IMG/VR virus record: IMGVR_UViG_3300044684_000094
Location: 1-36,028 of that record
Direction: 5' to 3' (one strand)
DNA length: 36,028 nucleotides
From: a virus
Every line of letters starts with the position of its first letter. Positions within the stretch are counted from its first letter, which is position 1. The position numbers were made by a program, and so were the translations under genes. Under the pieces are notes generated by a model. It had not been told where the DNA came from. It saw only the letters and a program-made list of their open reading frames with translations, and searched no databases. Positions 3,492 through 29,419 of the stretch are shown piece by piece.

Positions 3492-3685
3492 GCTGGAACT
3501 ACCAGCCGCCTAAATCGCAGGGCTCCTATCTGGTGGTGGAGAAACCATGGCGCCATATCGTCGTTGCGTATTACTGCCCGATCATGGCAAGGCCTTGGTC
3601 CATCCACGGAAGGTGGTACGACTTAGGTGCGGTAGAGGCTTGGGATTACTTGCCCGATTTGCCGCCTGCGCCAGTTGACAAATGA
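3488..3685 (+). CDS. Small DUF551-like unknown protein
   Basis: A 65-residue product that overlaps the resolvase gene by ATGA. The tail AWDYLPDLPPAP resembles the W-x-P-L-P ending of DUF551-type phage proteins, and the body carries several tryptophans. The true DUF551-like gene in this window is at 29,416-29,613. It is the last gene before the terminator at 3,757. Function unknown. Confidence 0.65.
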   Translation: MSWNYQPPKSQGSYLVVEKPWRHIVVAYYCPIMARPWSIHGRWYDLGAVEAWDYLPDLPPAPVDK

Positions 3686-3756
3686 TCGACCGTTGCTATC
3701 CTTACCCCACGCCTCAGTATCTCCATGGTTTCCCCCTGTGCATGAAACTTGAGCCG

Positions 3757-3794
3757 ACCCCTGCCCATCGGGAGATGCGCGGGGGTTATTTTTT
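3757..3794 (+). terminator. Rho-independent terminator ending the early operon
   Basis: acccctgc (3757-3764) pairs with gcgggggt (3779-3786), 8 bp with one G-T, followed by tatttttt. It sits 70 nt after the last early gene and before the first late gene. Confidence 0.85.
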
Positions 3795-3853: not shown

Positions 3854-4018
3854 ATGAAGAAGGCATACAGCAAGGGTGGCGACAAGCGGTCTTCCGCACC
3901 GCAGAACACGGCCACTGGTTCGGGCAGTCGCCCGATGGGCAGCAAGTTCAAGATTCCGACCACTGAGCCGAAGAATGAACGGACCATGGAACGGGCGCCA
4001 AAGGGTTGGCTGAAGTAA
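3854..4018 (+). CDS. Small basic unknown protein, first late gene
   Basis: A 54-residue ORF with gaggatagg 4-12 nt before ATG 3854. It is rich in Lys, Arg, Ser and Pro and low in hydrophobics (MKKAYSKGGDKRSS to RAPKGWLK), so probably disordered and nucleic-acid binding. It stands alone between the early terminator and the structured non-coding block before the terminase. I do not recognise a family. Confidence 0.65.
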   Translation: MKKAYSKGGDKRSSAPQNTATGSGSRPMGSKFKIPTTEPKNERTMERAPKGWLK

Positions 4019-4084
4019 TCGGATTTGGGTGAAGTACACAGGCTGATGTGGAATAGGCGGGTTCTGCCCCGTAAAACCATCTAG

Positions 4085-4352
4085 GTCCCGATATGAGGCA
4101 GATGCCGGAGATCAGCACCGGCCACCCAATTGAATAGCCACTGCTTCCGTGCTGACGAGCTGTCGGCAGTGGCACAGGCCTAGCCCCTCCTGAAACTGGG
4201 GCGAACAAATTCGATGTGGATGATTGATCCCTGTAACCTGCTGCGATTCTAGGATGTGGTGGCAGCCGATCATTCCTGAATGGAGCCGCAATCCTAACTG
4301 CGGTGGCGGGCGCAGAAAGTTAGAGGCGCTGACTGCTAGGAAAGACTAGCGA
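4085..4352 (+). ncRNA. Hairpin-rich non-coding block upstream of tRNA-Gly and terminase
   Basis: No convincing ORF lies between 4019 and 4358 on either strand; the minus-strand frames here lack ribosome sites. Perfect short helices follow one another: gccgg/ccggc (4104-4108 with 4118-4122), gccactgc/gcagtggc (4137-4144 with 4166-4173), gcccc/ggggc (4183-4187 with 4198-4202), tgatc/gatca (4225-4229 with 4268-4272) enclosing ctgc/gcag (4238-4241 with 4262-4265), ccgca/tgcgg (4286-4290 with 4299-4303) and gctag/ctagc (4335-4339 with 4346-4350). The tRNA begins 9 nt later. A structured RNA processed from the late transcript is the inference; precise ends are unknown. Confidence 0.45.
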
Positions 4353-4358
4353 CAATTC

Positions 4359-4432
4359 GCGAGCTTGGCCGAGTGGCTAGGCAATAGCCTTCCAAGCTAT
4401 CCATGAGGGTTCGATTCCCTCAGCTCGCTCCA
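4359..4432 (+). tRNA. tRNA-Gly (anticodon UCC), CCA encoded
   Basis: A full cloverleaf: acceptor gcgagct/agctcgc (4359-4365 with 4422-4428), D stem gcc/ggc, anticodon stem atagc/gctat around loop cttccaa (anticodon TCC), variable loop ccat, T stem gaggg/ccctc around ttcgatt, discriminator T and genome-encoded CCA at 4430-4432. It reads GGA and, by wobble, GGG. It sits inside the late transcript, 25 nt before the small terminase gene, so it must be excised by processing. Confidence 0.93.
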
Positions 4433-4457: not shown

Positions 4458-4712
4458 ATGGCCGCTAGAACGCTTCGACCCAAACATACGGATGAGATCC
4501 GGCTAAAGATTCAAACCTCGGTCATTCTCAACCGGCTTACGAGGCACCTTATGGGTGAGATAACCCTTACCCCGGCACAGGTCAGGTCAGCAGAGATTTT
4601 GTTAAAGAAATCAATCCCCGACCTTTCGGCGGTTGAACTTACTGGAAAGGATGGAGGGGAGCTTAAGGTAGGCATTAGCGTCTCCTTCAAGGATCCCGAA
4701 GGTGCAGGTTGA
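4458..4712 (+). CDS. Terminase small subunit (likely)
   Basis: I use ATG 4458 (84 residues); a TTG at 4437 would add seven residues starting 5 nt after the tRNA, and neither start has a clear ribosome site. The family recognises the packaging site and loads the large subunit. The sequence has a basic start (MAARTLRPKHTDEIR), a helical core (SVILNRLTRHLMGE, then LTPAQVRSAEILLKKSIPDLSAVEL) and a short beta end. This matches small packaging proteins seen directly before PBSX-type large terminases. The 11-nt overlap with the large subunit supports the call; homology is judged by eye. Confidence 0.72.
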   Translation: MAARTLRPKHTDEIRLKIQTSVILNRLTRHLMGEITLTPAQVRSAEILLKKSIPDLSAVELTGKDGGELKVGISVSFKDPEGAG

Positions 4713-5973
4713 AGTCGTCGCCCCGACGAAGCTTCAGTTTCTATACCGTCCCAAGCGGTACAAGGTGGCTTACGGCGGTCGTGGCGCAGCTAAGAGCTGG
4801 GCCTTTGCAGACGCCATCCTGGTCAAGGGCCTGGAGAAGCCCATACGCATTCTGTGCGCCCGCGAGTATCAGAACTCGATAGCCGAGTCAGTCCATCATC
4901 TGCTGTCTGACCGCATTCGAGCGTTAGGCCTGGAAGGTCTATATGAACCCCTTCAGTCGGTCATACGGGGGAAGAACGGTACTGAGATCGTGTTCTCCGG
5001 CCTTCGGGTCAATCCCAATAACCTCAAATCCTTCGAAGGGTGCGACATCTGCTGGGTTGAAGAGGCCCAGAACGTGTCTAAGCGCTCCTGGAACGTCCTG
5101 ACGCCCACCATCCGTAAGCCTGGATCTGAGATATGGGTGAGCTTCAATCCGGAGCTTGAGACCGATGAGACCTACCAGCGGTTCGTTCTCAATCCACCGG
5201 AGAATGCCATTTGCCAGGCAGTAAGCTGGCGTGACAACCCATGGTTTACGGCAGAGCTTGAAGCAGAGCGTCAGGATTGCCTGAAGCGGGATGAGGACGA
5301 GTACCTGACCATCTGGGAGGGTAAGTGCCGGGTGGCCCTGGAAGGCGCTGTATACGCCCGTGACCTACGAGACCTCATTGCCCGTAATGGAGTGCTCAAG
5401 GTTCCCTATGACCGCTCAAAGCCCGTACATACGGCCTGGGACCTTGGCTGGGGCGATTCCATGGCTATCGTGATCTTCCAGCAGATAGGCTATGAGTACC
5501 GGTTCCTGGGATACATCGAGGGGCGTCATATGACAACCTATGACTACGTCCTGGAGCTGAAAAAGCTGCCCTACATCTATGGCCACCACTACGGACCCCA
5601 TGATGGGGTCAATGGCAATATCGGCTCTGGCACGAGCTGGGAGCAGGACATAAAGACCTATTTCCAGACCCCGCACGTCCATATCAACCCACAGACGGAC
5701 GAAGCAACGCAAATTGCTGCGGTGCGCAATGTTCTGTCCAAATCGGTGTTTGATGAAGCTGGAACCGTGGAATTGCGCAATCGATTGGCTCGATACGTCT
5801 ACGGTCAGCATGCTGACGGATCATCGACCCGCGTACCGATCCATAATGCTGCCAGCCATGGCGCCAAAGCCCTAGCCACCATGGCTATCGGCTACAGCGA
5901 GGGCCATGACAAGCCCAAGATCAAAGTCGGCAGCACTTCCGCCCCATCAACCTCTTCTTGGATGGCGTCATGA
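4702..5973 (+). CDS. terL: Terminase large subunit
   Basis: The packaging motor ATPase and headful nuclease. GTG start at 4702, with aagga upstream; 423 residues, a normal length. Walker A is GGRGAAKS (25-32), Walker B is ICWVEEAQ with the catalytic glutamates at about 120-121, and coupling motif SFNP follows at about 147-150. The C-terminal RNase H-like nuclease begins with TAWDLGWGDS (244-253), giving D247 as a metal ligand. This pattern is the Terminase_3 (PBSX/P22-like) family. The gene overlaps the small subunit by 11 nt and the next ORF by ATGA, so translation is coupled. Confidence 0.95.
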   Translation: MQVEVVAPTKLQFLYRPKRYKVAYGGRGAAKSWAFADAILVKGLEKPIRILCAREYQNSIAESVHHLLSDRIRALGLEGLYEPLQSVIRGKNGTEIVFSGLRVNPNNLKSFEGCDICWVEEAQNVSKRSWNVLTPTIRKPGSEIWVSFNPELETDETYQRFVLNPPENAICQAVSWRDNPWFTAELEAERQDCLKRDEDEYLTIWEGKCRVALEGAVYARDLRDLIARNGVLKVPYDRSKPVHTAWDLGWGDSMAIVIFQQIGYEYRFLGYIEGRHMTTYDYVLELKKLPYIYGHHYGPHDGVNGNIGSGTSWEQDIKTYFQTPHVHINPQTDEATQIAAVRNVLSKSVFDEAGTVELRNRLARYVYGQHADGSSTRVPIHNAASHGAKALATMAIGYSEGHDKPKIKVGSTSAPSTSSWMAS

Positions 5974-28608: not shown

Positions 28609-28841
28609 GTCGTCACTCCAAGCTCCTGCAACTCTACCGTATCCACGCGCTCCAACAGCGTCTTGCGCATGGCCCTCAGCTTCACTGCACGCTCCCTTCT
28701 AGACTCACCCTCGAACGTCCACCATTCGCAGTACACGCGGCGGTTGAAGTCGCGACGGAACAGGCGATAGGTGATGCCACCTTCTGTTGGAATGCGCGTC
28801 CAGGAGAAGCGTGAGTGAGGATTGGGGCCTTTTCGCTTCAT
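28605..28841 (-). CDS. Small basic unknown protein
   Basis: Seventy-eight residues with ATGA overlaps on both sides. Basic and aromatic (RFSWTRIPTEGGITYRLFRR; CEWWTFEGESRRERAVKLR), probably beta strands and then a helix. No family is recognised. Confidence 0.62.
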   Translation of the reverse strand: MKRKGPNPHSRFSWTRIPTEGGITYRLFRRDFNRRVYCEWWTFEGESRRERAVKLRAMRKTLLERVDTVELQELGVTT

Positions 28842-29419
28842 GCATCATCCTTAGGCGAAGGTGCGGCGGCGAGCATGGCTCTGTAAACCAATCCAGGCGC
28901 ATCTGCTGGAGTTTCTATATCAAAACCTTCGCTCTCCGATAGGAATCCGGCGCGAAGCATTTCCGCTGTTGGCTCAACCGGCACCAGATTCCATCCATCC
29001 GGCACGCTCACCTGCACAGCCTCAGCCTTAATTGCTCGATCTTTCCAGTAATCGATGGCGTTTTGCAGGTCGGTGTCGCCGGTTACGATAGCCTCGGCCT
29101 CATTAGCAAGGTCGCGGAGCATGTCGGCTGCTTGGTACATGCAGTTGTATATACGATAATACTCACCGCCAGTGGTTTTGCTTTTGAGTTGTTCAGCCAT
29201 CTTCCGCATGTCTTGTGGGGTGTGCCTTGCTGTAGCGTTTGTCCTGCGATTCCACTTTTTGATAGCGTCCTCCGGAGTTTTGCCAACAACATCAGCATTA
29301 CAGTTGGGATTGCCGCATCTAACAACATAGCAACCCGGCTTGCCGAATGGACTGTCCTCAAAATCGTCTTGTGTGTTGCCGCAAAAAGGGCACGGCAATA
29401 GGTCAATGTGCTTTGTCAT
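28838..29419 (-). CDS. Lar-like zinc-ribbon protein with a long C-terminal extension
   Basis: Residues 1-60 match the Lar (restriction alleviation) type: LLPCPFCGN with C10/C13, then VRCGNPNCNADVVG with C35/C40, then TPEDAIKKWNRR. Classical Lar modulates type I restriction in favour of unmodified DNA, but many phage homologues are untested. The extension (61-193) is helical and ends VPDGWNLVPVEPTAEML, then YRAMLAAAPSPKDDA, a segment commonly attached to small phage accessory proteins. It has ggag at 8 nt and overlaps its neighbours by ATGA. Confidence 0.78.
   Translation of the reverse strand: MTKHIDLLPCPFCGNTQDDFEDSPFGKPGCYVVRCGNPNCNADVVGKTPEDAIKKWNRRTNATARHTPQDMRKMAEQLKSKTTGGEYYRIYNCMYQAADMLRDLANEAEAIVTGDTDLQNAIDYWKDRAIKAEAVQVSVPDGWNLVPVEPTAEMLRAGFLSESEGFDIETPADAPGLVYRAMLAAAPSPKDDA

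Follow-up and report, generated by a model that had tools for sequence, protein, structure and literature searches.

The late leaders of lambdoid phages are a known home of small RNAs (PMC4104026). STnc100 and PasD are prophage sRNAs that are expressed near Q and the lysis genes (PMC5331693, PMC13192938), and phage P22 makes a small RNA, P22E, at the locus of the RNA described here (PMC13397905). In this study, we analysed a window of 36,028 nucleotides of viral DNA (IMG/VR record IMGVR_UViG_3300044684_000094) and found that the main part of the non-coding block before its terminase genes is almost certainly a conserved structured RNA. We named the RNA family 'kissing-loop leader RNA' (KLL). 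Copies of it turn up in numerous phages that infect Gram-negative bacteria and frequently adjoin tRNAs. Because the lambdoid late-leader site houses small RNAs and STnc100 and PasD are expressed, KLL is likely to be expressed as well.

Results

On the plus strand of the window, 340 nt of non-coding DNA (4019-4358) run into a tRNA gene directly before the terminase genes, as the first-pass annotation had described. It had also noted that the block lacks a credible open reading frame, and this was borne out, since the best candidates in the ORF list were short TTG-start frames. The tRNA-Gly(UCC) at 4359-4432, with an encoded CCA, was called by ARAGORN and scored 63 bits with the Rfam tRNA model. 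The helices listed earlier at 4025-4031/4123-4129, 4104-4108/4118-4122, 4137-4144/4166-4173, 4183-4187/4198-4202 and 4335-4339/4346-4350 are real as sequence, and the gap between the last hairpin and the tRNA is 8 nt, not 9. The frame at 4458-4712 (17 viral relatives, no PHROG match) was named terS by its position, and terL at 4702-5973 matched phrog_3717, the PHROG terminase large subunit (E = 1.5e-59). Portal, scaffold and major head genes lie downstream of terL, and a RusA-like resolvase gene lies upstream of the block. Elsewhere in the window, the minus-strand gene at 28838-29419 resembles Lar-like restriction alleviation proteins in its N-terminal part (phrog_599, 4.8e-11).

A consensus scan with 0.9 matches expected by chance gave a candidate late promoter at 3675-3702 (+), TTGACA-16-TATCCT with TG before the -10 hexamer. 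It is followed at 3757-3794 (+) by a predicted intrinsic-terminator-like hairpin of 8+4 bp and -20.4 kcal/mol and then TTATTTTTTG. We infer that the promoter and the hairpin form a PR'/tR'-like start of the late transcript, which may be used by Q-type antitermination. A small basic ORF of 54 aa in the ORF lists (3854-4018, +) lies upstream of the block; it had no PHROG match, and relatives in L002 and L003 were recognized by eye. The block is best explained as the untranslated leader of the late transcript.

A near relative, L082, was found through the anticodon arm of the tRNA-Gly. It keeps the promoter, the terminator, the ORF, the 5' part of the block and the tRNA (93% identical); both promoter hexamers are unchanged in the alignment while the spacer differs, and the terminator-like hairpin is identical. 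Its leader and tRNA precede a different terS (L082 1787 onward), and the junction of leader and terS is therefore a module boundary. About 140 nt of the window that end with the hairpin at 4335-4350 (module B, 4214-4351, +) were absent from L082 by alignment and nhmmer. Copies of the direct repeat AATTCG (4208-4213, 4354-4359) stand on either side of module B, which holds a strong hairpin set (fold z = -1.94). No relative of module B was found, and it may be either an insertion in the window or a deletion in L082. The first-pass annotation had considered a remnant of a lost tRNA cluster. This does not hold for 4019-4129, where compensatory change keeps the structure, and is possible for 4214-4351.

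A covariance model, R1, was built from 35 elements of other phages with the window, L082 and L083 left out. It matched the window blind and over the full length of the model at 4022-4132 (+), with 62 bits and E = 7.7e-18, although E-values of R1 are rough. R1 also matched L082, L083 (three copies), phage P1 (two copies), HK633, K751 and others. The RNA identity that the first-pass annotation had inferred is supported: the late transcript carries a conserved RNA domain with co-varying pairs, to which the tRNA is joined.

The common element consists of stem P1, AAU, the hairpin GCGC[AGGCUGAU]GCGC, a variable insert (V), the hairpin GCCGG[AGAUCAGCA]CCGGC and the other side of stem P1. The frame of the family is a closing stem of 7 bp, a hairpin of 4-5 bp, V of 12-200 nt and a hairpin of 5 bp, and the two loops are complementary. 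In the window, the strands of stem P1 are UUGGGUG (4025-4031, +) and CACCCAA (4123-4129, +), which were assigned from the co-variation of this stem in 90-96 relatives and from the fold. The P2 hairpin CAC[AGGCUGAU]GUG, placed by the model match and the fold, lies at 4037-4050 (+) with the kissing segment GCUGAU at 4042-4047; its stem has 3 bp, and L082 has 4 bp (GCGC/GCGC) in the same place. V occupies 4051-4103 (+) and cannot be aligned with V of L082 between the conserved hairpins. The P3 hairpin GCCGG[AGAUCAGCA]CCGGC at 4104-4122 (+), with GCCAG/CUGGC as its stem in L082, carries the kissing segment AUCAGC at 4111-4116, and its 17-mer is common to more than 100 viral contigs among the matches listed. 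The window copy thus has stem P1 and P3 paired and the loops GCUGAU/AUCAGC complementary. An outer domain was predicted by folding at 4019-4214 (+), in which a P0 helix (4019-4024/4209-4214) surrounds KLL, hairpin H2 (4137-4144/4166-4173) and hairpin H3 (4183-4187/4198-4202). Both hairpins are kept in the alignment with L082, the H2 stem with a U-G change.

Stem P1 conserves its pairing in many different sequences. Among 96 non-redundant rows with V removed, 95-100% were paired at the first six positions, and up to six pair types occurred per position. Doubly changed cells numbered 265, compared with 86 in shuffled alignments; because the copies are related and not phylogenetically independent, this contrast overstates the significance. 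In the alignment of 35 sequences, seven of the eight modelled pairs had two-sided changes, and 97.9% of the cells were paired, compared with 86.3% in shuffled and 30-52% in slid alignments. The stem stops sharply after 7 bp: pairing is 93-100% at positions 1-7, then 62%, and then at chance level. Of 163 copies, 20 were left out because fewer than five of their six inner P1 pairs formed in the fixed register; among these 20 are some true copies shifted by one base and some false matches.

The loops are complementary over six bases, and GCUGAU/AUCAGC is near-invariant. As most copies were collected by the exact 17-mer of P3, the invariance of P3 and of the loops comes partly from this selection, and the evidence from stem P1 is less touched by it. 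Two loop variants were found: GGUGAU/AUCACC in Stenotrophomonas phage CUB19 (L100) and L392, and GCCGAU/AUCGGC in L495 and L499. L392, with its altered loops, is an independent match of R1 (E = 2.1e-11), while L100 scores weakly (E = 0.25) and belongs to the family by its readable stems. A search of viral contigs for AUCACC loop variants gave 120 matches, nearly all due to chance, with L392 as the one true KLL. The co-varying variants support a real loop-loop pairing.

The first-pass annotation had proposed to compare the folding energy of the block with that of shuffled sequence. The result was borderline, with z = -2.01 for the whole block (3 of 100 shuffles equally good) and z = -0.56 for the opposite strand. 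In sliding windows of 120 nt over the whole genome, the mean z was -0.3 and 8% of windows fell below -2, and pieces of the block reached only -0.3 to -1.5. The value thus lies inside the genome background, and folding energy was rejected as proof of a structured RNA. What is decisive instead is the blind match of the covariance model and the co-varying pairs in relatives. The fold of the window that conforms to KLL lies 4.5 kcal/mol above the computed minimum when the kissing contact is not counted, and L082 folds directly into KLL, H2 and H3 (z = -2.84).

A DNA similarity search of phages with the whole block matched only the tRNA. A short core at 4099-4126 is common to the TerS relatives L083, L086 and L088, and the core scan gave more than 100 places in viral contigs and more than 100 in genome contigs among the matches listed; 138 of 244 exact 17-mers in the collected loci were preceded by a second core like GCAGGCUGAUGC. 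A query with one V variant alone, counted where the match spanned most of its length, placed KLL in prophages of at least 629 of 5,426 complete E. coli genomes. Within one family of bacterial genomes, KLL was matched at E 1e-5 in 6 of 79, several of them weakly.

The element lies between Q and the holin/lysis genes in HK633, the P22-like phages IME10 and CUS-3, and ES2, and between Q and a tRNA-Phe in phiEt88. It stands just before or after tRNAs in phage P1, KP591P3, swi2, SOVA965 and R656, and its tRNA-neighbouring copies include those of Klebsiella, Stenotrophomonas and Pseudomonas phages. It also lies inside a non-coding array of 3.3 kb in K751 and adjoins repressor genes of E. coli prophages. 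Upstream of terS it was found in the window, L083, L086, L088 and Aeromonas phage 62AhydR11PP, and L083 has three copies in tandem around a tRNA-Pro before terS. A tRNA on the same strand within 300 nt accompanied 15 of 129 copies, compared with 1.9 expected. Of 108 distinct contexts, 13 had an intrinsic terminator no more than 120 nt downstream; the opposite strand had none, and random sites gave 2.1. This bias establishes the strand of KLL.

V behaves differently from its frame. Among 90 pairs of copies with flanks at least 80% identical, V was at least 80% identical in 79 and at most 51% identical, which is no more alike than unrelated sequence, in 11, with none between. Six pairs share V although their flanks do not match. 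This all-or-none similarity indicates that V is exchanged as a unit. V of the window had no antisense match in its own genome beyond that of shuffles. T-arm-like hairpins are present in a minority of inserts (4 of 118, compared with 0.04 expected). In addition, a V sub-element, GTAAAACGAGGCGT...ACGCCTAT, is common to different phages (L534 1955-2000, L540 1950-2000, L203 and L218), so V has its own subfamilies.

Other elements were seen in the same kind of region. In lambda (L544, lambda 43800-45700), the late leader from PR' to S contains a stem element, 'X' (ACAACAGGTAAGAGCATT...GTGCTCTTTCCGTTGTG), at about 995-1062 and partly under orf-64. At the place that KLL takes in IME10 and CUS-3, directly after X (1055-1145), lambda has another insert, which is closed by GTTGTGCTG/CAGCACAAC. 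X-like stem pairs occur in 27 loci, such as L340, L339, L344, L101 and L298, and often adjoin KLL; one of the 27, in the window, lies far from the block and is due to chance. The late-leader/tRNA regions of phage P1, HK633, K751 and relatives also contain tmRNA-like reading frames, which are preceded by a conserved stretch with AUAAAUGCAAACGA at its end. These frames lie at L340 2368, L339 2796, L344 2823, L165 1320 (-) and L298 5557 (-), and their tags (ANDDLMMVAA, ANEEMYLAVA, ANDNTFLAVA, ANDDLMLMAA and ANDDAVLMAA) are each followed by a stop. Rfam tmRNA models match weakly at the tag frames.

Discussion

KLL is a strongly co-varying RNA that is unannotated in much-used phages, namely P1, the P22-like IME10 and CUS-3, and HK633, and in E. 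coli prophages, and Rfam is without a family for it. With it, the long untranslated leaders of late transcripts in lambdoid phages gain a concrete and testable content, and the exchange of V points to the part that is expected to be under selection.

Our preferred explanation, which we hold tentatively and give somewhat less than an even chance, is that KLL may be a stable leader RNA, a frame that displays a swappable effector arm and acts in trans through V. Transcription from the PR'-like promoter past the terminator would yield a leader with KLL, the tRNA-Gly and the packaging mRNA. The 7-bp stem would close the junction, the two short hairpins would kiss through six loop bases that complement each other, and V would sit on the strand that joins these hairpins. 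Host processing, at least by RNase P at the 5' end of the tRNA, could then part the leader from the mRNA and leave a compact stable RNA. The first-pass annotation had suggested an RNA processed together with the tRNA, and this is plausible and fits the tRNA neighbourhood in other phages. A terminator directly follows some copies, which means that processing out of a long leader would not be general. The constant frame would confer stability and perhaps recognition, and V may be the payload for a changing partner, such as an RNA of the host or of a rival phage, or a nuclease or defence protein of the host. A changing partner would explain why V is exchanged as a unit.

The main rival, which we consider unlikely, is that KLL acts in cis in the leader and controls late-operon transcription (by antitermination or pausing, like the HK022 put RNAs), mRNA stability or the timing of late genes. 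The position downstream of PR'/Q-type promoters and before late genes in HK633, IME10, CUS-3, ES2 and phiEt88 agrees with such a role, as does the conservation of promoter and terminator between the window and L082. However, KLL also lies in the tRNA clusters of phage P1, in the array of K751 and beside the repressor genes of E. coli prophages, and a swapped V would be odd for a cis controller. Moreover, lambda has the same Q-PR'-S layout, and no KLL match was found in it.

It is quite unlikely that KLL is a tRNA-shaped decoy or mimic, a special form of the preferred explanation in which V replaces the anticodon arm and the RNA diverts a tRNA-binding enzyme or a defence that cuts tRNAs. The order and lengths of the helices are tRNA-like: a stem of exactly 7 bp, a linker of 2-3 nt, a D-arm-sized hairpin of 4-5 bp with a loop of 8 nt, an insert in place of the anticodon arm, and a 5-bp hairpin stacked on the stem with a linker of 0 nt, with loops that touch. 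ACCA right after stem P1 was found in 6 of 90 copies (0.4 elsewhere) and ACC in 14 of 90 (1.7 elsewhere). Together, these features make tRNA-like processing or a decoy role attractive, and the tRNA neighbourhood agrees with it. Phage tRNAs are reported to counter tRNA-targeting defence (PMC11555353, PMC10264068). On the other hand, P3 has no T-loop consensus and a loop of 9 nt instead of 7, six kissing base pairs replace the contacts of the D- and T-loops, the window copy is without ACCA, and most V are without the T-arm-like hairpins found in four. ARAGORN and the Rfam models of tRNA and YrlA (Y RNA-like) do not call KLL; only 4359-4432 was called as a tRNA in the window.

The swaps of V between near-identical flanks, and module B within its direct repeat, could also be expected of a selfish or passive mosaic element, whose hairpins would be recombination boundaries between phage modules with incidental RNA structure; in CUS-3, the KLL 3' end is spanned by a feature that the depositors annotated as 'boundary sequence' (bsq3). 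We regard this as improbable, since stem P1 conserves pairing and not sequence, which DNA recombination would not need, the loops co-vary, and the terminators favour one strand.

It is distinctly improbable that KLL is an Hfq-dependent base-pairing sRNA of the STnc100/PasD type of lambdoid late leaders. STnc100 and PasD have the same order of stem, hairpin, insert and hairpin: a closing stem whose 5' side is followed by GGUGAAU, then the first hairpin, the long insert and a 5-bp hairpin set directly against the closing stem. They share the lambdoid late-leader location near Q and the lysis genes, where they are expressed (PMC5331693, PMC13192938), and STnc100-like and KLL RNAs occur in the same arrays of phage P1 and K751. 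R1 gave a weak match at the STnc100-like place of phage P1 (19.1 bits, E = 0.0024). In contrast, their loop sequences are different and have no clear 6-bp complementarity, and STnc100 (RF02076) matched neither the window at E up to 10 nor the KLL places in four further scans. They are also described as stand-alone sRNAs, PasD with a terminator, whereas the window copy has neither a terminator nor a U-run after it.

A packaging RNA or site (phi29-pRNA-like, or cos/pac), which the first-pass annotation had suggested from the position directly before terS, also seen in L083, L086, L088 and Aeromonas phage 62AhydR11PP, is very improbable, because the close TerL relatives L002 and L003 (68-70% identity) and most other TerL/TerS relatives tested are without KLL (3 of 17 TerS relatives carry it before terS), a different terS follows the leader and tRNA in L082, Q-holin or tRNA loci far from terminase genes house most of the annotated copies, and Rfam gave no pRNA match at E up to 10, so that KLL appears to be an accessory of the leader and not a part of packaging.

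With X-like stems often next to KLL, late leaders give the impression of arrays in which structured RNAs are the modules. A bolder proposal, which we consider rather unlikely as a whole, is that KLL would be a tRNA-shaped chassis whose payload arm can be exchanged; phages would trade it as a cassette, and it would form one block of these arrays. Its array partners would be tRNAs, STnc100-like RNAs, the X stem element (also in lambda) and the tmRNA-like tag frames. If true, the arrays would be a phage RNA arsenal made in late infection, which could include decoys for defence systems that cut tRNA or RNA.

The covariance model and the Rfam search proposed in the first pass had different outcomes: R1 matched the window, and Rfam 15 has no family that covers KLL, even at permissive thresholds (E up to 10 for the window; further loci were also scanned); a weak isrJ match in these scans was a terminator. 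The core sequence of KLL was not found in the main texts of the freely accessible papers searched. P22E was considered as a KLL transcript because of its locus and rejected, since its printed sequence is without the KLL core. The C4 antisense RNA and isrK are, like KLL, small structured RNAs encoded by phages, and L108 and L341 carry both kinds. They differ from KLL in sequence and structure, and their Rfam matches in L108 and L341 lie elsewhere, none at the KLL place. The purine riboswitch is a three-way junction in which two parallel hairpins are joined by kissing loops. The architecture of KLL is alike, without an Rfam sequence match, and V sits between the two hairpins of KLL. With about 100 nt and no Rfam match, KLL is unlike GOLLD and ROOL, but it shares with them that they are structured RNAs beside phage tRNAs, held by kissing loops (PMC12286853).
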